56,808 nucleotides of DNA. Origin: a virus. This document shows, piece by piece, positions 21,240 through 56,665 of the stretch. The notes below the pieces were generated by a model that saw only the letters and a program-made list of their open reading frames with translations, searched no databases and was not told the origin of the DNA. Position 1 is the stretch's first letter. Every line of letters starts with the position of its first letter. A program made the translations under genes and the position numbers. The stretch is taken from the IMG/VR virus record IMGVR_UViG_3300020202_000006, positions 1 to 56,808 of that record, one strand, 5' to 3'.

Positions 21240-23543
21240 ATGTCCAAGCCCCGCGACGAGTCCGCGCTCCTCAACGCCGACATCCCGGAGGGGTTGCAGG
21301 CCATCCTCGACGAGATCGGCCGCGCCCCCCCGCGCGTCGACGGCCACGCCAACCCCGAGCACTACCGCCGCCGCCTCGCCCGCCTCTCCGCCACCAGCGA
21401 GTGGTTCAACGAGCGCGGGGGCGCCATCCCCTTCAACCTCGAATCCGCCCACAAGATGATCTACCGCGAGGCGGAACTCGCCGGCATCGACGCCAAATCG
21501 CTGGCCGACGCCCGCTCCGAGGGCGACAAGATCCGCGACGCCGCGGAGATGCTGAAGGAGATCCCCGACGCCGTGTGGGAGGTCCCCTCCGCCGAACTCC
21601 GGCGCATCCTTGAAGAGATGGAGTCGGCCAAGGACCTCGCCAAGAACCTCATCGACTCCCGCCGCAAGCCCATGACCAGCGAGGAAGAGATGCGCTGGCA
21701 GGCCATGACGCACGCCGAGAAGCAGCGAGAACGCCGGGGAAAAGCCCTTTGCGCCCTGATGCGGGGAGTGCTCAGGGCGCGGGAGCTGGCGAGCAACCCG
21801 AACCCCCCGGGAGTCAAGAACGGCCCGTGGTGGGAGGCGACGCACGTGCTCCGGGTGATGCTCTACGTGGGCCGGAGCAACATGACCAAGAGCAGGGCGG
21901 CCGATGAGGCGGGCGGCGCGACCGTCTTCCTCATGGCCCCGCACCTCGTGCGCTACGCCGTGGACACCTGGGAGGCGCGCAACGGCGTCCAGTACGACCA
22001 GCACGGCCCCCGCCGCGGCGTCTTTGACTACAAGGGCGTCGTGCTCATCGCCCCGATGGGCCACTCCAAGACGGAGTACGCCGAGCACTGGCTGGGCACC
22101 GAGATCGCCATGAACCACCGCACGCAGGCGGCGTACCTGCACGCGATCGAGGAGAAGGCGATCGAGCCCAAGGAGTACGTCCACAACCTCTTCCGCACCT
22201 CCACGGCGTCCGGCCGACGCATGGCCGCGCTCTTCGGGCGGGTCGAGTTCGACAGGAAGGACAACAACTCGACGACGATGAGGCTGAGGCTCGACAGGCG
22301 GCTCAAGAGCCCCACACTCCAGGCGTGCGGCGTGATGAAGAAGGGCCTGGGCGGGAACACCAACATCCAGATATGGGACGACGTGGTCCCCCAGAGCGAC
22401 CGCGACAGCGAGAGCGAGCGCGAGCGCCGCAAGAAGCAGCTCCACATGACCTGGGCCAGCCGCCAGCGCGGCAACGGCACGTTCATCCTCGCCATCGGCA
22501 CGCTCTGGCACAACGACGACGCCCTGTCCGAACTCGTCAAGCAGGGGAAGAAGGGCTCGTTCCTCATCTCGGTGCAGCGCACGGGCGGCCCCACGAGCAG
22601 CCCGCCGTTCTTCCCGCTCTGGCCGGAGGTGTACCCGGCGGCGGAGCTGCGGAAGAAGTACAACAACCTCCGCGACCGGGCGCTCTGGGCGGCGTGCTAC
22701 GAGGCCAACCCCATCGCGGAGGACATGCGGGTCGTCAAAAGGATCCGCTTCTACGACCCCGACAGCCCCGAGCACCGCCGGTTCGTGGACTCGTGCTTCA
22801 AGGCCCTGTCCCTGGACCCAGCCGCCACGGCGAAGGTCGAGAACGACAAGGCGGGGTTCCTCTACGCGGGCATCGGCGAGGTCTCCGTGGAAACAGACCG
22901 CGACGGCGTGAAGGTCCGCGAGTACCAGAACCGCGTGCGGATCCTCCAGGCCCGCCAGTTCCACGCGACCCAGAGCGCGCTGGTCACGGAGGCCGAGGCG
23001 TTCCTCGCCTCCCATGCCGTGGACAGCGTTCTGGTCGAGACCCGCGGCGGGTATCACGCCACGGCGGAGATGTTCGAGAACAGGTACGGGCTGCCTGTCG
23101 AGCGGCGCGACCCCACGAACACGAAGAAGCTGCAACGTCTCAAGCAGTGCGCGGGGCTCATCGAGCACGGGAACCCCGGCATCGACGCCGTGGTGGAGTT
23201 CCCGGGCAAGTGGAACGAGGACCGCACGGAACTCGTGCCCGACGAGAACTTCAGGGACCTCTACAAGCAGATCCTCGACTTCGGCATCGAGTCCGAGGAC
23301 CACCTGATCGACACGCTGACCCAGCTGCTGATCTGGGCGATGGAGGAGGGGCGGGTCACGGCGGGCGTGGGGATGGCGAGCGCCCTGGTGCGCCGGGCCG
23401 TGGCGGAGGCGGGGGATTCGCGGCTGCTGGGGATGTACAAGCAGGCCGAGGCCCCCGAGAACCACAGGAAGACGGTGGAGGAGGAGGACGGCGACTTTCT
23501 CTGCAACCGCCTCGCGCCCTACTTCGGCGCGACGCTCAACTGA
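21240..23543 (+). CDS. terL: Large terminase subunit
   Basis: This 767-residue packaging motor-nuclease has the ATPase motifs in order. A Walker A-like APMGHSKTE lies at 271-279, a Walker B IWDD at 378-381 and a coupling motif GTLWHNDD at 420-427. A C-terminal RNase H-type nuclease follows, with acidic residues at about 526 (SLDPA), 600 (LVETRGG) and 691 (LIDTL). A 200-residue helical N-terminal extension precedes the ATPase, longer than usual, and may include adaptor functions since no clear small terminase is adjacent. It would translocate DNA into the prohead and cut it. Confidence 0.93.
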   Translation: MSKPRDESALLNADIPEGLQAILDEIGRAPPRVDGHANPEHYRRRLARLSATSEWFNERGGAIPFNLESAHKMIYREAELAGIDAKSLADARSEGDKIRDAAEMLKEIPDAVWEVPSAELRRILEEMESAKDLAKNLIDSRRKPMTSEEEMRWQAMTHAEKQRERRGKALCALMRGVLRARELASNPNPPGVKNGPWWEATHVLRVMLYVGRSNMTKSRAADEAGGATVFLMAPHLVRYAVDTWEARNGVQYDQHGPRRGVFDYKGVVLIAPMGHSKTEYAEHWLGTEIAMNHRTQAAYLHAIEEKAIEPKEYVHNLFRTSTASGRRMAALFGRVEFDRKDNNSTTMRLRLDRRLKSPTLQACGVMKKGLGGNTNIQIWDDVVPQSDRDSESERERRKKQLHMTWASRQRGNGTFILAIGTLWHNDDALSELVKQGKKGSFLISVQRTGGPTSSPPFFPLWPEVYPAAELRKKYNNLRDRALWAACYEANPIAEDMRVVKRIRFYDPDSPEHRRFVDSCFKALSLDPAATAKVENDKAGFLYAGIGEVSVETDRDGVKVREYQNRVRILQARQFHATQSALVTEAEAFLASHAVDSVLVETRGGYHATAEMFENRYGLPVERRDPTNTKKLQRLKQCAGLIEHGNPGIDAVVEFPGKWNEDRTELVPDENFRDLYKQILDFGIESEDHLIDTLTQLLIWAMEEGRVTAGVGMASALVRRAVAEAGDSRLLGMYKQAEAPENHRKTVEEEDGDFLCNRLAPYFGATLN

Positions 23544-25061: not shown

Positions 25062-27119
25062 GTGCAGTTCAAGAACCCGGCGCAGTTCAAAGACTTCATC
25101 ACCGAGGCCCGCAGGAGCGCCGAGGGCTATCGCCTCGCCCTGGCCCAGCGCACCGCCATCGACGAGTGTTATTACGAGGCCGTCCAGTGGCTCACCGACG
25201 CGGCCTCCCGCTACGGCCACCTCAACACCTCCACCGGCCAGCTCTACACCTCCATCAACCCCGACATCCCCAAGCTCCGCGTCACCCGCAACCGCGTCAC
25301 CCGCTACATCTCGCAGGTCGCCGTCGCCACCCGCCCCGAGCGGCTGGAGTACAGCGTCCCCCCCTCGCCCCGCGACGCCGGGCCCGCCGGCGCCCACAAG
25401 GCCCAGCTCCTCGAAGACCTGCTCACCGCCGCGTCCGACGCCTGCGGGCTCGTCGAGGCCGCCCGCGTCGCCAACTTCCGCCGCTGCGTCACCGGCACCT
25501 ACGGCCTGGGCCTGGCCGCCAAGATCCAGCCCCGCCGCCTCTCCATCGCCGGGCAGGACGTGCAGATGCGGGACTCCAAGGTGGAGGCGTTCGCCTTCCA
25601 CCCCCTGCGGCTGGTCCTGGACCCCCACAACCAGAGCCCCGACCTGCGGCGACACGAGTACGTCGCGTACACCGACGTGTGGTCCGCCGCCAAGATCCGC
25701 CGGATGTACCCCGGCGTCACGCTCGACGAGAACATGCTCAAGACCGTGGGGAGCCTGACGCCCCACGAGCAGAACGCCCACGCGCTCAGCGCCGGGCGTC
25801 TCTTCCGGCGCTACGCCGACATGGCGAGCACCAAGGGCGCCCGCGTCTACCAGCTGCACTGCAAGGACGAGACGGGCCGCTTCGGGCTGATGTACTGCGC
25901 CATCGAGACCGCCGACGGCGAGTACCGGGTCGTCAATATGGAGGAGCCCGTCAGCCCCTTCGGCGGGTGCGGGCTCCCCCTGGTCCTGCTGCACGCGACC
26001 CCCCGCGCGGACGCGATGTGGTCCGTCTCGGACGTGTCGCTCATCAAGGACGACCAGGACTCGGTCAACCTGGCCTACTCGATGTGGTGGCGGACGCTCC
26101 AGCGGTACACCGCCCCGCAGTGGGTGGTGGACCTGCGGTTCTTCGGGAACCCCTCCCAGACCGAGGACGTCACCCACCTCTTCCACAACAAGGTCGGCGC
26201 CATCATCCAGGGCAAGCCGACGATGGACGCCAAGCCCCCGCAGCTCGTGGCGCCCCCGCCCCCGCAGGCGGCGATCATGGAGTCCGCCGACCGCGCCGAC
26301 CGGGACATGGCGGCCAACACCAGCGTCCCCGACCAGAAGTACGGCCAGGGCGTCAAGAGCCACGTCCCCGACGCCGCGTACCAGACCCTCCTCCGCCAGG
26401 CCGACCACAAGCACGCCGCCCGCGTCAGCGACGACAGCGCGGCCTACGTCGCCTTCGCCCAGATGCTCCTGGGCACCACCCTCCGCGAGGTCCACGCGCA
26501 GACCCCCTCGACGCTGGCGATGCTCGCCAAGGCCGGATTCGACGGGGAGGATTTCTCGGCCCTCCTGGAGTGCGACCCCGGCGCCGACTACGCCGTCGAA
26601 CTCAGCGAGAGCAGCGTGCGGTTCCGGTCGGCGGCCGAGAAGCGCGAGGAGTTGCAGACCGCCGCCCAGGTCCAGATGGTCACGCCGTACCAGTACCGCC
26701 GGGCGATGGCGGACCTGGACATGGCGCTCACCACCGAGGACGCGGAGATGACGCGGAAGATCCAGCGCGCCATCGTCCGCCTCTTGCAGGGCGTCCCCTG
26801 GCGGCCCCTGGACCTGGGGGAGTTCAACGAGTGGTGCCTGGCCGAACTCCGCAAGGCCCAGTTCGACCGCCGGGCCGAGCAGGACGAGTCCGTGGCGACG
26901 CTGGTGCAGGAGGCCATCGCCGTCCAGACCCAGCTCGGCGTCCAGGCGGCCATGATGCAGGCCCAGGCCGAGGCCCCCCCGGCCCCGCAGGCGGCCCCCG
27001 GGGCGGATACGCAACAGAATACGCAACAGCCGCCCCAACTCCTGTCCGATGTGTTGGCTATGCTATCGGGTGAGACAAGCAATAGCGGCGGCCAGGCGGC
27101 CCAACCCGCTGTTGCGTAA
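25062..27119 (+). CDS. Portal protein
   Basis: This 685-residue protein, with GTG start, lies between terminase and scaffold, where a portal is expected. The length and helical layout fit the large portals of P22-like phages, with an N-terminal adaptor region, a central stem region (SVSDVSLIKDDQDSVNLAYS about 325-345) and a long helical C-terminus rich in Gln, Ala and Pro (about 620-685). It would form the dodecameric DNA gate. The assignment rests on position, size and general character. Confidence 0.8.
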   Translation: MQFKNPAQFKDFITEARRSAEGYRLALAQRTAIDECYYEAVQWLTDAASRYGHLNTSTGQLYTSINPDIPKLRVTRNRVTRYISQVAVATRPERLEYSVPPSPRDAGPAGAHKAQLLEDLLTAASDACGLVEAARVANFRRCVTGTYGLGLAAKIQPRRLSIAGQDVQMRDSKVEAFAFHPLRLVLDPHNQSPDLRRHEYVAYTDVWSAAKIRRMYPGVTLDENMLKTVGSLTPHEQNAHALSAGRLFRRYADMASTKGARVYQLHCKDETGRFGLMYCAIETADGEYRVVNMEEPVSPFGGCGLPLVLLHATPRADAMWSVSDVSLIKDDQDSVNLAYSMWWRTLQRYTAPQWVVDLRFFGNPSQTEDVTHLFHNKVGAIIQGKPTMDAKPPQLVAPPPPQAAIMESADRADRDMAANTSVPDQKYGQGVKSHVPDAAYQTLLRQADHKHAARVSDDSAAYVAFAQMLLGTTLREVHAQTPSTLAMLAKAGFDGEDFSALLECDPGADYAVELSESSVRFRSAAEKREELQTAAQVQMVTPYQYRRAMADLDMALTTEDAEMTRKIQRAIVRLLQGVPWRPLDLGEFNEWCLAELRKAQFDRRAEQDESVATLVQEAIAVQTQLGVQAAMMQAQAEAPPAPQAAPGADTQQNTQQPPQLLSDVLAMLSGETSNSGGQAAQPAVA

Positions 27120-27176
27120 GAGCCGGACCCAACCCGCGGCCTGTTGCTTGTGGCGGTCCTGCTTCGGAGACGTTCC

Positions 27177-27998
27177 GTGAGCGATCTTGCTAGCCAGGGT
27201 GTCGGTGCGGCCGGGCAACCCGCGCAATCCGCGGCCCCGCAACCCGCGCAGGCCGGAGGCGTGCAGGCGCCGTCTTTCAACCCCGAGGAGGTCGGGCGTT
27301 GGAAGCGAGGGGCCGAGCAGTACGAGGGCGTGCGGGGCTTTGTGACCAAGGCCCAGCAGTTCGGGATCAAGGGCGAGAAGGAACTCGAAGCGTGGGGTCC
27401 GTTGGTGACCCACGCGCAGAGGCAAGGCTGGGGGCCCGACCGGCTCATGGCCGCCTTCTTTCCCCAGCAGCCCGAGCCGCAGCACGCCCAGAGCCAGTTC
27501 GACCCCGAGGAGTTCGAGAAGGGCCTGATGGAGAAGCTGTCGGCGCGGGAACGCGAGAGGATGGAGAAGGAGCATCAGCGGGCGCTGGACGCCGAGTACG
27601 GCGAGCTGGCGGACGAAAAGCTCTTCGCCTCCCACCTCAAGGGCGTCCCCAAGCCGCTCCAGCCCCTCTACGCCGAACTGCTCCGCGCGCGGTATTCCGC
27701 GGCGCGCCAGCCGTACCCCGAGGACCACGCCCTGAAAGGGATGCACGGGCCCGCGGGGCGGACCTTCCTGGACTCCGTCCCCAAGACCATCGCGGAGTGG
27801 GACAAGGCCGTCAAGGCCGCCCAGATGAACGCGATCGCGGAGGCCGCGCAGAAGCCCGGCGCCGCGCCCCCCGCCGGGAGTGCCGGCGGCCAGGGGGCAC
27901 CTGACAAGACCAAAGACCCTCGGCGGGCCCAGGGCCTGCCGAGCAGAGAGGAGATCGAGGCGTCGCACGCGCAGCGGGTTGCCGCGCGGTCGCGCTGA
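27177..27998 (+). CDS. Capsid scaffolding protein
   Basis: The 273-residue protein begins at GTG with GGAGA 6 nt upstream. The N-terminus is Ala/Gln/Pro-rich, and the middle is charged and helical (EKGLMEKLSARERERMEKEH). It lies between portal and major capsid genes. Low complexity, charge and position are typical of a scaffold that guides prohead assembly and then exits. Confidence 0.75.
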   Translation: MSDLASQGVGAAGQPAQSAAPQPAQAGGVQAPSFNPEEVGRWKRGAEQYEGVRGFVTKAQQFGIKGEKELEAWGPLVTHAQRQGWGPDRLMAAFFPQQPEPQHAQSQFDPEEFEKGLMEKLSARERERMEKEHQRALDAEYGELADEKLFASHLKGVPKPLQPLYAELLRARYSAARQPYPEDHALKGMHGPAGRTFLDSVPKTIAEWDKAVKAAQMNAIAEAAQKPGAAPPAGSAGGQGAPDKTKDPRRAQGLPSREEIEASHAQRVAARSR

Positions 27999-28018: not shown

Positions 28019-29422
28019 ATGGCCGAGCCCCTTGACAGTGCAGTCTTTCTGGAAGACGCGACCGCGATCGTCCAGCAGCAATACTTCGGGAAGTACGAGG
28101 AGCAGTACGCCGACCGCTTCGGCTCGGTGACCAACAAGCTCTTCACGCCCGAGTCCGAGGCGATCTCGGGCGACGGCAAGACCATGCAGTTCGAGCTGGG
28201 GCCCGCCGACAGCGTGCGCTTCCAGATCGACCCGCTGGGCAACATCGCCAACCCCCAGAACCTGGAGGCCGGCACGCTCAAGGTGCGGTGGAACCGCACC
28301 AACACGGCGCTGCACGACTTCACGCTGGCGACCGCCCGCGTGCAGTTCGACATCTACACGATCGAGAACCACGCCAGGGGCACCATCGTCGACCTGGCCG
28401 ACCGGATCTACCGCTCGGTGCAGGACGACTTCGACGAGAAGCTGGCGATCATGCGGCACGCCGGTCGCACCGCCCAGCTCTGCCTCGTCGACGGCACGCC
28501 CCGGCAGAACGACCGCGAGACGTGGGCCGACGCCGCCGCCACGCCCACCAACACCACGGGGATGCGGGTCAAGATCGACACCGGCTCGATCGCCACCATC
28601 CGCCCCAACGGCCGCTACGACTTCATCCGCCCCGCCACCGGCGCCGTCATCGCCGGCAACGTGCGCTGCACGGACATCCCCAACTTCACCGAGAAGTCCG
28701 CGGGCTTCGAGTTCATCACCTCGGGCCTGACGGGCGAGCTGTCCACCGGCAACCTGGCCAACGTCGCGGACAACGACATCGTCGTCTTCTCCGGCACGTA
28801 CAACCAGGGCATCTGGTCCTTCGGCGCGTACTTCTCGGCCCCCTCCGCGGGCGAGACGTTCATCGGCGGCATGGACCGCACCGACGCCGGCAACCGCTGG
28901 GCGATCACCCAGCGGCTCGACGCGGCCAGCGCGCGGATCAACAAGTCGCACTTCAACGACATGGCCATCGCCATGGGCTTCCTCTCCGAGAAGCGCCGCG
29001 CCGGCACGGTGTGGATGTCGGACCCGACCCAGCACCAGCGCCTCCGCGAGGAGCTGGGCGAGGAGTCGTTCATCCAGCTCCCCATCGGCGACGACCGCGC
29101 CGAGCGCTTTATGAACTTCGGGTCCGTCGGCCTGAACTACCAGCACGGCACGTTCGGCACGGTGAAGATCGTGTCCGACGGCCTGGCGCGGCAGGACCGC
29201 ATCCTGATCCTCCAGAACGACACGTGGAAGGCGCTGTACTACGGCTGGAAGGGCCTGCGCGCCCTGCCCGCCGACGGCGGCGGCCACTGGTACCGGATGA
29301 ACCAGGGCACGCCCAACACCGGCCGCGGCCTCATCAAGTGCGCGGACTGGGCCGGCAACTGCTGCGATTGGTGCACCCGCCCGTGGCAGAACGGCGTCAT
29401 CCACAGCCTCGCGGTCTCCTGA
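28019..29422 (+). CDS. Major capsid protein
   Basis: The 467-residue protein directly follows the scaffold, with GGGAGTGAAGGCTC before the ATG. A helical N-terminus (EDATAIVQQQYFGKYEEQYA) is followed by alternating strands and helices. Its C-terminal part is Trp- and Cys-containing (CADWAGNCCDWC, about residues 440-451). An HK97-type fold is expected for this gene order. The Cys cluster may allow disulfide or metal stabilisation of the shell, which is unusual. Confidence 0.82.
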   Translation: MAEPLDSAVFLEDATAIVQQQYFGKYEEQYADRFGSVTNKLFTPESEAISGDGKTMQFELGPADSVRFQIDPLGNIANPQNLEAGTLKVRWNRTNTALHDFTLATARVQFDIYTIENHARGTIVDLADRIYRSVQDDFDEKLAIMRHAGRTAQLCLVDGTPRQNDRETWADAAATPTNTTGMRVKIDTGSIATIRPNGRYDFIRPATGAVIAGNVRCTDIPNFTEKSAGFEFITSGLTGELSTGNLANVADNDIVVFSGTYNQGIWSFGAYFSAPSAGETFIGGMDRTDAGNRWAITQRLDAASARINKSHFNDMAIAMGFLSEKRRAGTVWMSDPTQHQRLREELGEESFIQLPIGDDRAERFMNFGSVGLNYQHGTFGTVKIVSDGLARQDRILILQNDTWKALYYGWKGLRALPADGGGHWYRMNQGTPNTGRGLIKCADWAGNCCDWCTRPWQNGVIHSLAVS

Positions 29423-29474: not shown

Positions 29475-29933
29475 ATGACGTACGACCGACGCTATCCGTG
29501 GATGGCCCCCATCGACCGCGCGGGCTTCCGCTTCGGACTCGACGCCCTGCGCGTGCGCAGGAACGCGGGCGAGGTGGCCAAGCGCACCGGCACCAACGCC
29601 TTCTACAACGCCGCGCGCGACGAGGTGCTGTTCGCCTACGGCGACGAGCCCTGCGGCGGGCCGCTGGCGGTGGGCGCCGAGGAGGTGCAGCGCTGGCACC
29701 AGGGCCGCATCGACGACGCCGTGCTCTACGTGAACATGGGCAAGGCCGACCGGCGCGAGAAGGACCGCATCGCCGAGCGGAACGCGCGGCTGGAGAAGCG
29801 GCAGCGGGAAGAGAAGCGCGACAAGGAGCTGGCCGACCGTCGGCCGGACGCAACCGACTACGCCGGCTTCCTCGACCGGGAGCGGCGCGGCACCCGCAAG
29901 GTGGTGTCGTGTAGTGCAGGAGTGACCCCATGA
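29475..29933 (+). CDS. Putative head-associated basic protein
   Basis: The 152-residue protein begins MTYDRRYPWMAPIDRAGFRF, has GTNAFYNAARDEVLFAYG and ends in a long basic helix (about 95-125, KADRREKDRIAERNARLEKR). It sits between the major capsid gene and a small beta protein, so it is likely virion-associated. Function unknown. Confidence 0.6.
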   Translation: MTYDRRYPWMAPIDRAGFRFGLDALRVRRNAGEVAKRTGTNAFYNAARDEVLFAYGDEPCGGPLAVGAEEVQRWHQGRIDDAVLYVNMGKADRREKDRIAERNARLEKRQREEKRDKELADRRPDATDYAGFLDRERRGTRKVVSCSAGVTP

Positions 29934-30268
29934 GCATGTGGAGCCGTCTCAAGTCCCTGGCCGGCGGCGACCGGACGCGGTACACGCTGGCCTCCGCCGC
30001 GGCCCTCGCCATCCCCGACGACACCAACTTCGTCACCGTCACGGGCACCACCGCCGTCACGTCCCTGAGCGTGACGGCGAGCGCGCGCAACCGTGAGATC
30101 ACGATCCTCGGCGGCGCCAGCGCGGCCGTCAGTTTCACCAACACCAACAGCCCCTCGGCGGGACAGATGTACCTCCGCGGGTCCGACCGGCTTGTGTCGG
30201 AGGATGTCGTGCTCAAGCTGCTTGTGAAGGCGGACGGCACGGTCACGCTCATCAGTTTCACCGGCTGA
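29930..30268 (+). CDS. Putative head decoration / beta-rich protein
   Basis: The 112-residue Thr/Ser/Val-rich protein has repeated strands (NFVTVTGTTAVTSLSVTASA) typical of small capsid decoration or fibre beta domains. It starts in an ATGA overlap. The family is not recognised. Confidence 0.6.
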   Translation: MSMWSRLKSLAGGDRTRYTLASAAALAIPDDTNFVTVTGTTAVTSLSVTASARNREITILGGASAAVSFTNTNSPSAGQMYLRGSDRLVSEDVVLKLLVKADGTVTLISFTG

Positions 30269-30338: not shown

Positions 30339-30962
30339 ATGTCCGCACCGTCCACCACCCCCAGCACCACCTTCGAGTCGAGCGCCGCGTGGTACAGCGG
30401 CCGGAAGGCCATCCGCTACCGCCAGCGCGTGACCCTCACGCACGGCCAGAGCATCATCGCCTGCGGCTTCAACATCCCGGCCAAGAGCCGGGTCATCCAC
30501 TCCCACGTCCGCAACGCCGGCACCAACAACGCCGTCTCGGGCGCCATCGGCGGCACGGCCCCCAACGCCGTCGCGCTGGTGATGTTCCCGACCTCCAACG
30601 CCGCGGCCACCTCGGTCCTGACCGCCTCGCCCACCACGGCGAGCCAGTCCAACCCCGGCGGCACCAACGGCTACATGCTCGCCATCACGCCCGGCACCGG
30701 CACGTCCGAGACCAACGGCGTCTGGCGCGGGCCCCCGCTCATCGAGACGATGGCGACCAACGCCCCCGGCGTCAACCGCAACCCCGTCGACGCCTTCCTC
30801 GCGCTCGTGCCGGCGCACACCTCGTCCAACCGCATCCAGGTCAACAGCGCCGCGACCGACTCGGGGTACTACTTCGGCACCACCAACGCCGCGAACACCA
30901 GCTCCCCGGGCTCGGTCGACGTGGTCCTCTACGTCGAGACGTACGACGACTACCCGTCCTGA
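30339..30962 (+). CDS. Putative virion surface protein
   Basis: The 207-residue Ser/Thr/Asn/Ala-rich protein is mostly beta strands, with GRKAIRYRQRVTLTHGQSII near the N-terminus. GGAGCGCAAC precedes the ATG. It is likely a major decoration or second capsid protein given its position and composition. No catalytic motif is visible. Confidence 0.6.
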   Translation: MSAPSTTPSTTFESSAAWYSGRKAIRYRQRVTLTHGQSIIACGFNIPAKSRVIHSHVRNAGTNNAVSGAIGGTAPNAVALVMFPTSNAAATSVLTASPTTASQSNPGGTNGYMLAITPGTGTSETNGVWRGPPLIETMATNAPGVNRNPVDAFLALVPAHTSSNRIQVNSAATDSGYYFGTTNAANTSSPGSVDVVLYVETYDDYPS

Positions 30963-31002: not shown

Positions 31003-33042
31003 ATGGACCCTCAGACTCTCACGGGCTCAACGGCCCCTTTTGATGGACCGGGCGGCGGGGTCGCTCCCCGCGCCGGTCTTCCTTCCTCTGGGCCGCCCCT
31101 CGACGAGGGGTGCGTCTGGGTTGCCCTGCACGCCAAGGGGTGGCAGGAGGGCGAGCAGGGCGTCATCGAGACGATCATCGACCACCTCGAAGACCACATC
31201 CCCGCCGAGCAGCGGTGGGTGGTCGAGTTCGGCGCCGGCGAGGGCTCGGCCGCGCTCCCCGTCACCGTCGCCCCCCTCTGCGTGCGCGAGGGGTGGAAGT
31301 CGCTGCTCATCGAGCCCCACCCGCAGGTCCGCCAGCGGCTGACGCGCAACGCCCCCTCGCGGTGCGTCATCGACGGCTCGTGCGTCCTGCCCGACGGCGA
31401 GAACACCATCGACGCCATCATGGCCCGCCACGAGTGCCACCCCAATCCGGCGGTGATGGTGGTGGACGTGGACTCGATCGAGTACCACATCGTCGAGGCG
31501 ATGGAGAGCCGGCCGATCGTGCTCTGCGTCGAGACGCTGGACCTGAACAGCCCCAGGCACAGGGAGTCGCCGCTGGAGCCGTACGTGCCCGAGCGGCACG
31601 AGTCGGGCACCATCCTCGACGACGACTTCGGCACCCAGCTCCAGGCCAACGCCGCGGCGTTCGACGCCCTGCTGGGCGCCCGCGGGTACAAGCTGGTCTT
31701 CCGCACCCGATTCAACAGCGTCTACGTGCGGGACGACCTGACGCCCCGCCTGCGCAAGCGCAAGCTCAACCTGGGCGCGGGCCCCACCGTCTTCCCGGGC
31801 TACGAGGCCCTGGACATCAAGACCGGCACCGACATCCGCAAGCTCGACCTGCCCGACTGCTCGGTGGACGAGGTCTACTGCTCGCACGTCCTGGAGCACT
31901 TCCCCTACGAGGAGCGCCTGGCGATCGTGAAGGAGTGGGTGCGGGTCCTCAAGCCCTGGGGCTCGCTCAAGATCGCGGTCCCCGACATGACCAAGCTGGC
32001 CAGGGCCATCGTCTCCGACGAGCCCGAGCAGCCCCTCTCGTACCTGGAGTCGGTGGTCTACGGCGGGCACAACGACGCCAACGACCACCACCGGGCGATG
32101 TTCACGGCGGCGACGCTGGCGAAGCTGATGAACGACGCGGGCGTGGGGTCGGTCGCCCCCTTCAAGCCCTTCATGCCCGACTGCTCGCAGAACCCCTACT
32201 CGCTGAACCTGGAGGGCGTGAAGCGCTGGTATCCCAGGGTGGAGAAGCCCCGGATCGCGCTGGTGATGAGCCAGCCCGAGCTGACGCACACCTGCCACGA
32301 GGAGAGCCTGGTCCGGCTGGCGCAGAGGATCGGCTTCGAGATCGTCCCCTGCAAGGGCGCGTTCTGGGACCGCGACGTGACGATCGGCACGCAGCACGCC
32401 ATCGCCACGCACAACCCCGACTTCCTGCTCTACAGCGACTACGACAGCGTCTTCGAGCCCGAGGACGTGCAGAAGCTCATCGACGCGATGAACGCCGACC
32501 CCACGCTGGCGGCGATCGGCAGCGTGCAGATGAGCCGGCACAACGACGCGCCGCTGGTCTTCGACCCCGAGTGGGACTACTCGGGGGAGATCTGCCGGGT
32601 GCGCTACTCGCACTTCGGGCTGACGCTGATCCGCCGCGAGGTCTTCGAGGAGATGCCCCAGCCGTGGTTCTGGTCCGTGCCGGGCCGGACGCCCGAGGGC
32701 GGGTGGGACTGGCAGGCGTGGGGCCGCACGGACGCGGACATCACGTTCTGGCGGAACTGCGACATCCTGGGGCTGAAGGTCTGCCAGCACAACGGCGTGT
32801 GCATCGGGCACAGCATCCGCGCCATCAAGTACCCCTGCGACAAGGGCAAGGGCGTGATGCTCGTGCCCATCGAGAACTACCGCCGGCAGGGCAAGCCCAA
32901 GGCCGCGGCGTTCAACCCCGCGCTGTACCGCAAGAGGCCCGAGCCGGCGCCGGTGCCGGCGCCCCCCGCCGACTTCCTGGCCGCGGCGACCAACGCCGTG
33001 CGTCCCGAGCCGCAAACCCCCGACGTGAGCGCGAGCCCGTGA
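31003..33042 (+). CDS. Three-domain methyltransferase-methyltransferase-glycosyltransferase-like protein
   Basis: Three enzyme-like domains are fused in 679 residues. Residues about 36-245 resemble FkbM-type methyltransferases, with EFGAGEG (75-81), LLIEPHP (101-107) and VVDVDSIEYHIVEAM (153-167). Residues about 253-400 are a second class I SAM domain, with LNLGAG (255-260), HVLEHF (295-300) and RVLKPWGSLKIAVPDM. Residues about 415-615 look like a GT-A glycosyltransferase, with a DxD-like SDYDS (478-482) and TDADITFW. The tail is Pro-rich. It lies inside the head operon, and its stop overlaps the connector GTG. It may decorate virion or host-surface glycans. The substrate is unknown. Confidence 0.75.
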   Translation: MDPQTLTGSTAPFDGPGGGVAPRAGLPSSGPPLDEGCVWVALHAKGWQEGEQGVIETIIDHLEDHIPAEQRWVVEFGAGEGSAALPVTVAPLCVREGWKSLLIEPHPQVRQRLTRNAPSRCVIDGSCVLPDGENTIDAIMARHECHPNPAVMVVDVDSIEYHIVEAMESRPIVLCVETLDLNSPRHRESPLEPYVPERHESGTILDDDFGTQLQANAAAFDALLGARGYKLVFRTRFNSVYVRDDLTPRLRKRKLNLGAGPTVFPGYEALDIKTGTDIRKLDLPDCSVDEVYCSHVLEHFPYEERLAIVKEWVRVLKPWGSLKIAVPDMTKLARAIVSDEPEQPLSYLESVVYGGHNDANDHHRAMFTAATLAKLMNDAGVGSVAPFKPFMPDCSQNPYSLNLEGVKRWYPRVEKPRIALVMSQPELTHTCHEESLVRLAQRIGFEIVPCKGAFWDRDVTIGTQHAIATHNPDFLLYSDYDSVFEPEDVQKLIDAMNADPTLAAIGSVQMSRHNDAPLVFDPEWDYSGEICRVRYSHFGLTLIRREVFEEMPQPWFWSVPGRTPEGGWDWQAWGRTDADITFWRNCDILGLKVCQHNGVCIGHSIRAIKYPCDKGKGVMLVPIENYRRQGKPKAAAFNPALYRKRPEPAPVPAPPADFLAAATNAVRPEPQTPDVSASP

Positions 33043-34160
33043 GCAGCATCTCCTACGCCGCCGCCTTCCAGGACGAGATCGCCCTGCTGCTGACGGGCGG
33101 GCTGTACGCCGCCTGCACGACGGAGCAGAAGACGCTCATCGACGGCAACTCCACGGCCAGCCCCCCCACGCGGGGCGCGGCCAAGGGGGCGTGGGACAAG
33201 GCCGTCCTGACCGACTACTGGGTGCAGCGCGTGGCCGCGGGGTCCACGGCCCCGGACCTCGACGCGCGGCGGTGGTTCATCTGGGAGGCCGTCAAGCAGG
33301 CCGGGGTGCAGATGCGCCCCAACATGCTCGACGTGTACACCAAGAACGCCGCGGAGGCCGAGGCGCAGTACGTCGAGCAGGCCGCGCGCCTGGCCATCGA
33401 CGCCAGCCCGGCCAGCTCCACCGAGCCCTGGGCCGTCAACCAGCAGAACATCCGCCTCTACTGCCTCGCGCACCTCATCCGCCGCACGCCCCGCGTGCTC
33501 GCCCCCGTCGAGACCATCGACGCCGCGACCTACGCGGTGCTCGCCGAGCTGTGGGACGGCTTCGACTGGCCCTTCCGCCGGCGCCTGGTGACGATGGCGA
33601 TCACCACCAGCGAGACGGTGACGTTCTCGGTGGGGACCAACACGCAGAGCATCGACCGCCCCGCGACGCGGGAGTTCTACTACGGGCCCGACGACGAGGA
33701 GGAGTCGTGCCTGAAGTGGGCGGACGGGGACGACTTCGCGCAGCGCCGCGCGGCCAACGACGGGGACACGGGCCAGCCCCGCTGGTGGCGCTTCCAGTCC
33801 GCGGGCGACACGCTCACGCACTACTTCGTCCCGATCCCCGACGCCGCGTACGAGCTGACGGGCGAAATCTACATCACCGGCCCGGGCAACCCCAGCAGCG
33901 CGACGGACACGACCCCCTTCGCCCGGTTCCCCGCCAGCGTGCAGCCGCTCATCCGCGAGCTGGTGCTGGCCCGCGTGCTCAAGGAGATGCGGGCCGACGG
34001 CGGGCGGGAGGAGTGGGAGAAGGAGTGGGCGCGGGCGACGGAGATGTGCCTGCGGCTCGCCGACCAGGGGCGGCAGGACGACGTGCAGGTGGTCCGCGAC
34101 GAGGCCCGCGACTTCCTGGAGTACGACGGCGTGGGCGGGATGCTGGGGGGGCCGCTGTGA
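33039..34160 (+). CDS. Putative head-tail connector / neck protein
   Basis: The 373-residue protein starts in a GTGA overlap. The first half is helical (AEAEAQYVEQAARLAIDASP), the middle is beta-rich (ETVTFSVGTNTQSIDRPATR) and a C-terminal helix is charged. Its place between head genes and an HK97-gp10-like gene supports a connector or adaptor role. I do not recognise the exact family. Confidence 0.55.
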   Translation: MSSISYAAAFQDEIALLLTGGLYAACTTEQKTLIDGNSTASPPTRGAAKGAWDKAVLTDYWVQRVAAGSTAPDLDARRWFIWEAVKQAGVQMRPNMLDVYTKNAAEAEAQYVEQAARLAIDASPASSTEPWAVNQQNIRLYCLAHLIRRTPRVLAPVETIDAATYAVLAELWDGFDWPFRRRLVTMAITTSETVTFSVGTNTQSIDRPATREFYYGPDDEEESCLKWADGDDFAQRRAANDGDTGQPRWWRFQSAGDTLTHYFVPIPDAAYELTGEIYITGPGNPSSATDTTPFARFPASVQPLIRELVLARVLKEMRADGGREEWEKEWARATEMCLRLADQGRQDDVQVVRDEARDFLEYDGVGGMLGGPL

Positions 34161-41356: not shown

Positions 41357-42022
41357 ATGCCCCTGCTCTATGCCGCCGCGTACGCCGTCGCCCTGCACCA
41401 GACGCCCGTGGTGCCCGAGCGCTTCGAGGCGTGGATCAACCCCGAGGCCGTCGCCGGCATCCCCGACGACCTCTCCGCCTTCGGCACCCGCCGCACCGTC
41501 GCCGGGGTGCTCTCCGTCCCCCTCCCCGCCCACATCCCCTCCTCCGCCGTCGAGGCGCTGGTCGTCACCCTCTACGGCTGGTCCGAGGGCCCCTGCGCCG
41601 TCACCATCGCCGTGGGCGCCGAGTCGGCGCGGGTGTGCAACGGGGGGTTCTCCGACACGGTGAGCTTTTCGGTGGAGTTCTCGCAATCGGCTCTTCTCGG
41701 CCCTGTTTCCGGCCTCGCGGTGACGGTGTCGATCGAGCCCCCGGGCGAGTGCGGGCCGGACCTGTTCGACTACGCCGGGGTCGACGCGCTGCTGGCGGAG
41801 GCGGTGTACCGCAAGTGCGAGGCGGACCTGGACAACGGGTCGGGGGTGGGCGTGCCCGACGGCGTGGTGGGCGTGGACGACCTGGCGTACGTGCTGGAGC
41901 GGTGGCCCGAGGGCGACCCGCGGTGCGACCTGGACGACGGGAGCGGGACGGGGGACAGCGACGGCGCCGTCACGGTCGATGACCTCCTGCACTTCCTGGA
42001 TCGGTACTCGCGGGGGTGCTAG
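41357..42022 (+). CDS. Dockerin-type (Gly-Cys-ending) protein
   Basis: The 221-residue protein has a beta-rich N-terminal domain (about 20-130). Two EF-hand-like calcium loops follow, DLDNGSGVGVPDGVVGVDDL (157-176) and DLDDGSGTGDSDGAVTVDDL (191-210). It ends in the helix LHFLDRYSRGC. Paired loops with DDGSGTG and a terminal Gly-Cys match, in my memory, the secreted 'GC-type dockerin' proteins of Phycisphaerae planctomycetes. AAAGG precedes the ATG. No strong signal peptide is visible. It stands alone on the plus strand, so it may be a moron displayed on the virion or host surface. Confidence 0.75.
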   Translation: MPLLYAAAYAVALHQTPVVPERFEAWINPEAVAGIPDDLSAFGTRRTVAGVLSVPLPAHIPSSAVEALVVTLYGWSEGPCAVTIAVGAESARVCNGGFSDTVSFSVEFSQSALLGPVSGLAVTVSIEPPGECGPDLFDYAGVDALLAEAVYRKCEADLDNGSGVGVPDGVVGVDDLAYVLERWPEGDPRCDLDDGSGTGDSDGAVTVDDLLHFLDRYSRGC

Positions 42023-56120: not shown

Positions 56121-56665
56121 TGCTCACCCCCGACGCTGGAGCGGCGTGCGGCCTCGGCCGACCGCGAGTGCCGCGGCGCCTGGTACGGGGTGGGGTGGCC
56201 CAGGTCGGTGGCGAGCTTGGCGTCCGCGGCGGGGTTGCCGCCGGTCAGCACCTCGCCGTTGGGGACGGGCTTGTCGGCGGGCTCAGCAAAGCCGAAGCAG
56301 TGGACGGGAGCCGTGCCCGCCTCGCCCGCAATGCGAACGGGACTGAATCGGAGCAGGCCGTAGCCCGCATAGTCACATGGCCCCTTGCCCTTGACGGACC
56401 CCGCCTCACCAAACGCCTTGGCCGCGCCCGCGACATAGCGGCCGATGCACTCGTTGGTGACGCTGCTGGGGGTGGCGCCCTGATCCTTGAATGGGCGGAA
56501 GTCCTCGGGGGTGGCGACGTTCCCGCAAAGCGGGCACTCAAAGCGCCACTTCATCTTGTCGGGGCCGAAGCGGCGCGAGCCCTCCGCGGCCCACTCTGCC
56601 TCCGTCATCGTGACGGGCTTCGCCGTCCCCGCCTCACCCCGCCCTGCTTGGTTGGTGCCGCTCAC
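56117..56665 (-). CDS. Conserved phage protein, cassette-like paralogue
   Basis: The 182-residue protein starts at GTG in a GTGA overlap. MSGT and AGRGEAG match the wrapped neighbour. The core (WAAEGSRRFG, WRFECPLCGN, CIGRYVAGAA, CDYAGYGLLRF) is a common phage family with a CPLC zinc pair. The last 50 residues are identical to the wrapped neighbour's because of the 148-bp repeat. Different cores within the same ends suggest domain exchange. Function unknown. Confidence 0.75.
   Translation of the reverse strand: MSGTNQAGRGEAGTAKPVTMTEAEWAAEGSRRFGPDKMKWRFECPLCGNVATPEDFRPFKDQGATPSSVTNECIGRYVAGAAKAFGEAGSVKGKGPCDYAGYGLLRFSPVRIAGEAGTAPVHCFGFAEPADKPVPNGEVLTGGNPAADAKLATDLGHPTPYQAPRHSRSAEAARRSSVGGEQ
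56137..56284 (-). repeat. 148-bp repeat, internal copy
   Basis: It is identical, by eye, to 56682-56702 plus 1-127 through the join. It encodes the shared C-terminal tail (PADKPVPNGEVLTGGNPAAD and following). Recombination between the copies would delete one gene core. Confidence 0.9.

Follow-up and report, generated by a model that had tools for sequence, protein, structure and literature searches.

Glycosylation of phage virions has, to our knowledge, been demonstrated in few systems, most of them mycobacteriophages. Four genes of phage Corndog, situated between those for the portal and the protease, encode an O-methyltransferase (gp35), two glycosyltransferases (gp36 and gp37) and a GlcNAc-transferase (gp38), and a role in capsid modification has been proposed for them (PMC4351075). 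Glycosylation of both capsid and tail proteins in mycobacteriophages, Che8 and Corndog among them, is attributed to Freeman 2023 in two later papers that cite it (PMC12363180, PMC11652166). The virion glycosylation genes of Che8 (gp108-gp110) lie near the right end of the genome; the first of them, gp108 (L200:2172-3347, NC_004680), is annotated only as a glycosyltransferase, yet consists of a GT2 glycosyltransferase fused to a TylF-type methyltransferase, the latter being 54% identical to gp33 of the Corndog-type phage Firecracker.

Here a locus of the same general kind is examined within a 56.8 kb virus contig that carries terminase, portal, integrase, ERF and SSB genes. This contig--the whole 56,808-nucleotide stretch of DNA analysed, termed here the window--was compared with IMG/VR, GTDB and 50,697 deposited phage records (L numbers denote loci). 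Its head operon includes a gene for a 679-residue protein in which two methyltransferase domains and a glycosyltransferase domain are joined, so that the phage-encoded glycosyltransferase and methyltransferases of the Che8- and Corndog-kind cassettes are both represented. The window resembles Corndog and Firecracker in having these activities inside the head operon, and resembles Che8 in having a glycosyltransferase fused to a methyltransferase. It differs from Corndog, however, in that one fusion replaces separate genes and in that the enzyme follows the coat gene; and it differs from Che8, where gp108 has the reverse order (glycosyltransferase first) and a single methyltransferase, and where the genes are not with the head genes. 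Hidden Markov models (HMMs) of the three domains, compared with Che8 gp108-gp110 and with Firecracker gp33-gp36 as representatives of the Corndog-kind enzymes, including their TylF-type methyltransferases, gave no detectable homology (E > 0.1). The systems are therefore alike in setting and parts, but do not share the same enzyme families.

Homologous enzymes occur in two uncultivated phages. Like the window, both encode methyltransferases and glycosyltransferases: in ctTUS972 (MW202573, L011) a methyltransferase and a glycosyltransferase gene lie between a P22-like coat gene and a tail adaptor gene, and ctKR88 (MW202524, L008) has consecutive methyltransferase, glycosyltransferase and methyltransferase genes. 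The methyltransferases of both are homologous to the window's (E = 1e-13 and 9e-15, respectively), as is the ctKR88 glycosyltransferase (E = 2e-15), whereas the ctTUS972 glycosyltransferase match is marginal (E = 1e-3). Unlike in the window, the genes are separate, and an FkbM domain is absent from the three cassette proteins.

The fusion gene (Table 1) runs without internal stops from an ATG, before which stands AAAGGG, to a TGA that shares 4 nt (GTGA) with the start, a GTG, of the ORF that follows. Third-position GC is 0.98-1.00 along residues 61-660, and this uniformity indicates one coherent coding frame. A frameshift or assembly artefact as the source of the fusion was ruled out on this ground and on the identical domain order in three other contigs. 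An AlphaFold2 model built on a 31-sequence alignment has a mean pLDDT of 78.7, most blocks of domains 2 and 3 lying close to 90; because each Foldseek match spans one domain only, whole-model TM scores are low. The C-terminal tail is mostly missing in relatives. Pfam, profile-profile comparison and AlphaFold2 with Foldseek agree with the first-pass annotation that three enzyme-like domains are present in one protein, and its proposed boundaries (residues 36-245, 253-400 and 415-615) match the model. The HMM and structure searches that it had suggested identify the domains as FkbM-type by profile-profile comparison, as Methyltransf_11 (MT11) by Pfam, and as a GT-A glycosyltransferase by fold.

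Table 1. Features of the head operon and of the fusion protein (window coordinates).
Feature	Position	Strand	Basis
Terminase large subunit	21240..23543	+	phrog_38, E 1.5e-28
Portal protein, P22-like lineage	25062..27119	+	phrog_156, E 5e-7; L019 orthologue matches PF16510 P22_portal, E 3.5e-7
Presumed scaffolding protein	27144..27998	+	position; no family match; syntenic in L019
Presumed major capsid protein	28019..29422	+	position; no family match; syntenic L019 orthologue
Head-operon ORF, 152 aa	29475..29933	+	syntenic with L019
Ser/Thr-rich ORF (25.7%), 112 aa, second candidate acceptor	29930..30268	+	L019 orthologue
Ser/Thr-rich ORF (24.0%), 207 aa, directly upstream of fusion, candidate acceptor	30339..30962	+	L019 orthologue, 45% identity
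Fusion, FkbM-type methyltransferase / Methyltransf_11-type methyltransferase / GT-A, 679 aa	31003..33042	+	ORF, translation, third-position GC, AlphaFold2
Domain 1, residues 36-245, FkbM-type methyltransferase	31108..31737	+	profile-profile comparison, motifs
Domain 2, residues 251-411, Methyltransf_11-type class I methyltransferase	31753..32235	+	PF08241, phrog_6636
Domain 3, residues 412-646, GT-A glycosyltransferase	32236..32940	+	Foldseek, invariant motifs, weak PF00535
Pro/Ala-rich C-terminal tail, residues 647-679	32941..33039	+	falling pLDDT, <50 at 670-679
Presumed connector ORF, GTG start	33039..34160	+	no family match; L019 orthologue 36% identical

Domain 1 is the most divergent of the three and has the lowest AlphaFold2 confidence; searched alone against Pfam it matches nothing, PF05050 (FkbM) included. 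A profile made from the window, L053 and L062, however, can be aligned across 170 columns to phage proteins of the FkbM type (probability 99.5, E = 1e-22), and four of the five phage proteins that align to it match PF05050. Domain 1 is thus like the FkbM family by profile comparison but is a diverged subtype in which EFGAGDG..LP replaces GAADG..SNT. These same peculiarities, together with the lack of domain 1 in the closest relative (L019), are what might be expected if one domain, most plausibly this one, were inactive and now served as an acceptor-binding module. That explanation is nevertheless extremely improbable, inasmuch as domain 1 retains SAM-binding motif I (EFGAGEG at residue 75), the acidic LIEPHP (102) and VVDVDS (153), the first two of which are also kept in L053 and L062, and inasmuch as dN/dS between L053 and L054 is low there as well as in the other two domains (0.048, 0.044 and 0.014 for domains 1 to 3), so that, by sequence comparison, all three are under purifying selection in these phages.

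Domain 2 carries the motifs LNLGAG (at 255) and SHVLEHF (at 294) and matches both PF08241 (38.2 bits against a curated cut-off of 21.2; E = 2.4e-9) and phrog_6636 (E = 6e-9). Domain 3 scores 18.2 bits against PF00535 (GT2), which is under the curated cut-off of 23.3; its model has a GT-A fold, the closest solved structure being A197 of STIV (PDB 2c0n; TM 0.71 by target length, E = 5e-8), with further Foldseek matches to ppGalNAc-T2, lysyl hydroxylase LH3 and GlfT2. Unlike the fusion, A197 is a single-domain protein of an archaeal virus, and it is 16% identical in the structural alignment. Residues D479, Y480, D481, H537, F538, G539, D579, G602 and H603 are invariant in 31 sequences, and D577 nearly so; the DxD motif is DYD at 479-481.

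Neither whole-protein nor single-domain searches of phages, IMG/VR and GTDB found a full-length relative of the fusion, and whole-protein matches in IMG/VR were limited to the methyltransferase of L002 and L003. When domain 2 was first aligned with remote methyltransferases of phages, an IMG/VR scan with this alignment yielded 80 loci, to which domain 2 is about 26-48% identical and to which GTDB adds six; for those GTDB loci that were checked, terminase, portal or capsid genes mark the contig as phage-like. Fusions of MT11 to a glycosyltransferase number 59 ORFs, 35 of them non-redundant (both counts including the window), and none of the 50,697 deposited phage records matches at least 80% of such a fusion. 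The earlier statement that no phage protein with the window's domain order has been described thus stands for the described proteins searched, but the order itself recurs in at least three uncultivated phages (L053, L054 and L062), and its uniqueness to the window was accordingly rejected.

Several other arrangements occur. The order is MT11-FkbM-GT in L065 and L104; FkbM is a neighbouring gene of the MT11-GT fusion in L020 (upstream) and L027 (downstream); L199 lacks MT11 but has unfused FkbM and glycosyltransferase genes within a single head operon; and L185 and L211 have a glycosyltransferase fused to another type of methyltransferase. In a tree, the window and L019, its nearest relative, form a group supported at 100/100. 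Two changes are required for the N-terminal FkbM label, which by this tree means either independent gain or loss both in L019 and among the sister lineages of L054 and L062. As judged from these sequences, the enzyme family is modular and, so far, uncultured. Three side observations were made among these loci: L048 has, besides its fusion, an unfused GT-A gene that belongs to this family (L048:4528-5256), just upstream of its methyltransferase-glycosyltransferase fusion; the translated terminase large subunit of L104 (L104:97-1974) contains an apparent in-frame intein (CLPAGTLVETEDG ... LLVHNC); and L002:2121-3698, between presumed capsid and adaptor genes (i.e., in the same slot), joins Methyltransf_11 to a different C-terminal half that may be GT-B/GT9-like, a resemblance seen by eye only, Pfam detecting the methyltransferase alone.

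Such modularity raises the question of whether the domains act together. They might have separate targets--the methyltransferases acting, for example, on a coat side chain and the glycosyltransferase alone on a sugar--with fusion ensuring equal dosage; Methyltransf_11 is a broad class, and the domains are also found apart, as in L199 and L011. This is a decidedly unlikely reading, however, given that the same three modules are repeatedly fused or adjacent in varied orders and that two carriers also have sugar-nucleotide genes, which suggests one pathway. Those two carriers are L027 and L065, where GDP-mannose 4,6-dehydratase and epimerase genes adjoin the enzyme (for L027, E = 4e-143 and 4e-65, respectively; for the L065 dehydratase homologue, E = 4e-111), and their presence points to GDP-deoxyhexose as a likely product in these phages. 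No sugar-nucleotide gene was seen among the window genes scanned, and the nucleotide sugar would therefore have to come from the host.

The nature of these partners also bears on whether the fusion might modify the bases of phage DNA, i.e., a hypermodification against restriction, expressed late by virtue of its position. Glycosyltransferases acting on DNA bases do occur in phages, and a soluble cytoplasmic enzyme would fit such a role. Sugar O-methylation, on the other hand, is common among FkbM enzymes, and the company of FkbM, Methyltransf_11 and GDP-deoxyhexose genes accords with it rather than with base synthesis; moreover, the fusion sits among head genes, and an unsystematic look beside it noticed no base-synthesis genes. 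DNA modification is consequently regarded as very unlikely.

The position of the enzyme is conserved across unrelated heads. HK97-type carriers run from portal and protease through the major capsid gene (phrog_10) and that for a phrog_5707 protein of 150 aa to the enzyme and then the head-tail adaptor (phrog_442). Of the 33 non-redundant loci that could be assessed, 29 have the capsid gene, the phrog_5707 gene or both directly upstream of the enzyme, at a median gap of 90 nt, and 25 have the adaptor downstream. The window and L019, which are syntenic from portal to connector, have a P22-like portal and hence a different portal/coat lineage, and in both the coat protein matches no family, yet they have the enzyme in an equivalent place; so does ctTUS972 (P22 coat, methyltransferase, glycosyltransferase, tail adaptor), and likewise L002 and L003. 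In the prophage-like loci L208-L210 and L232, protease, capsid, phrog_5707 and adaptor genes follow one another with no enzyme between, and it is therefore an optional insertion. The initial description of the fusion as lying between capsid and connector genes holds as regards the head operon, though both names are positional (next to the portal) and have no family match behind them. Searches with the window's coat, terminase, connector and portal proteins found no relatives, and profile comparison revealed no detectable link between its connector and the adaptors of L011 and L002.

A fixed place among head genes also weighs against the proposal that the fusion alters glycans on the surface of the host, be it lipopolysaccharide or some other polysaccharide of the envelope, and thereby blocks superinfection or changes a receptor, as serotype-converting prophages do. 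The integrase and ERF genes do suggest a temperate phage, and MT11-only relatives are widespread in bacterial genomes. But the gene lies in a late head operon, overlaps the start of the connector gene, and recurs in phages with unrelated heads; serotype-conversion (gtr) cassettes encode membrane-bound, bactoprenol-linked enzymes, whereas hydropathy detects no membrane segment in the 679-residue protein (maximum 1.23 over 19 residues, for this protein only); and 294 planctomycete genomes lack the MT11-GT fusion, save for a bin already found in the family scan. Modification of host glycans is therefore considered unlikely.

As to the host itself, a 221-aa ORF elsewhere in the window (41357-42022, +) has at its C-terminal end a dockerin domain of the GC type (NF041540, E = 1.2e-18). 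Of 99 planctomycete genomes, 3 contain matches above the cut-off of this model, each at least 54 of them, and 14 control genomes contain no such match; this distribution suggests that the host is Phycisphaerales-like and that the phage carries a dockerin-tagged protein. The window's portal was not found in 392 planctomycete genomes, in a search that had no positive control. The contig also has an exact 127-bp repeat near its ends (1-127 and 56158-56284), the second copy being followed by 524 unrelated bases; this may be an imperfect terminal redundancy or may reflect paralogous gene starts.

A candidate acceptor is suggested by composition. The two Ser/Thr-rich ORFs upstream of the fusion have the highest Ser+Thr contents of the window's called genes longer than 90 aa (mean 11.2%, s.d. 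4.9). Among relatives, the phrog_5707-like protein has a median Ser+Thr content of 22.0% when the enzyme is present (n = 30) versus 14.2% when it is absent (n = 10; p = 1.7e-4, a value that ignores relatedness between loci and is obtained from groups that differ in overall composition). Corresponding shifts in capsid, protease and adaptor proteins are smaller. An exception is L226, whose phrog_5707-like protein reaches 26% with no glycosyltransferase detected. Profile comparison found no detectable homology between phrog_5707 and the window ORF directly upstream of the fusion, and the phrog_5707 structure model is a beta-sandwich with weak, unspecific fold matches. A Ser/Thr-rich upstream head protein as acceptor is thus a lead.

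Taken together, virion-protein glycosylation is the best supported role, owing to the fixed slot across unrelated heads, the sugar-nucleotide genes of two carriers and the mycobacteriophage precedent; against it is counted that a head-operon position could reflect late expression only. The first-pass suggestion that the fusion methylates and glycosylates virion proteins is upheld to this extent, whereas none of the findings favours the host mimicry or receptor evasion that it also proposed. By analogy with Che8 and Corndog, the best reading, to which we assign a probability of roughly 0.6, is that a head protein rich in Ser and Thr is O-glycosylated and that the sugar it bears is O-methylated, the fusion serving as a one-polypeptide virion glycan writer. 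Its catalytic activity, the identity of the sugar, the acceptor, any benefit, and O-methylation of a sugar rather than of a protein are inferred. The GT-A domain would take a sugar from a nucleotide sugar that the host supplies and attach it to Ser or Thr of a head protein, or to a first sugar; the acceptor would be another product of this operon, most probably one or both of the Ser/Thr-rich proteins encoded just upstream, or else the coat protein; the two methyltransferases would O-methylate the transferred sugar at different positions; and the benefit might be shielding of the particle or altered adsorption.

More tentatively, and at something short of even odds, the family may constitute a mobile, modular capsid glycan-writing unit, which repeatedly occupies one slot in unrelated heads and gains, loses and rearranges its modules, while the upstream Ser/Thr-rich protein evolves as its acceptor. 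A conserved yet optional, slot-specific family in uncultivated phages that has empty-site relatives and an adjacent candidate acceptor would make the extent and purpose of capsid glycosylation testable, and its permuted fusions show how such glycan pathways are assembled.
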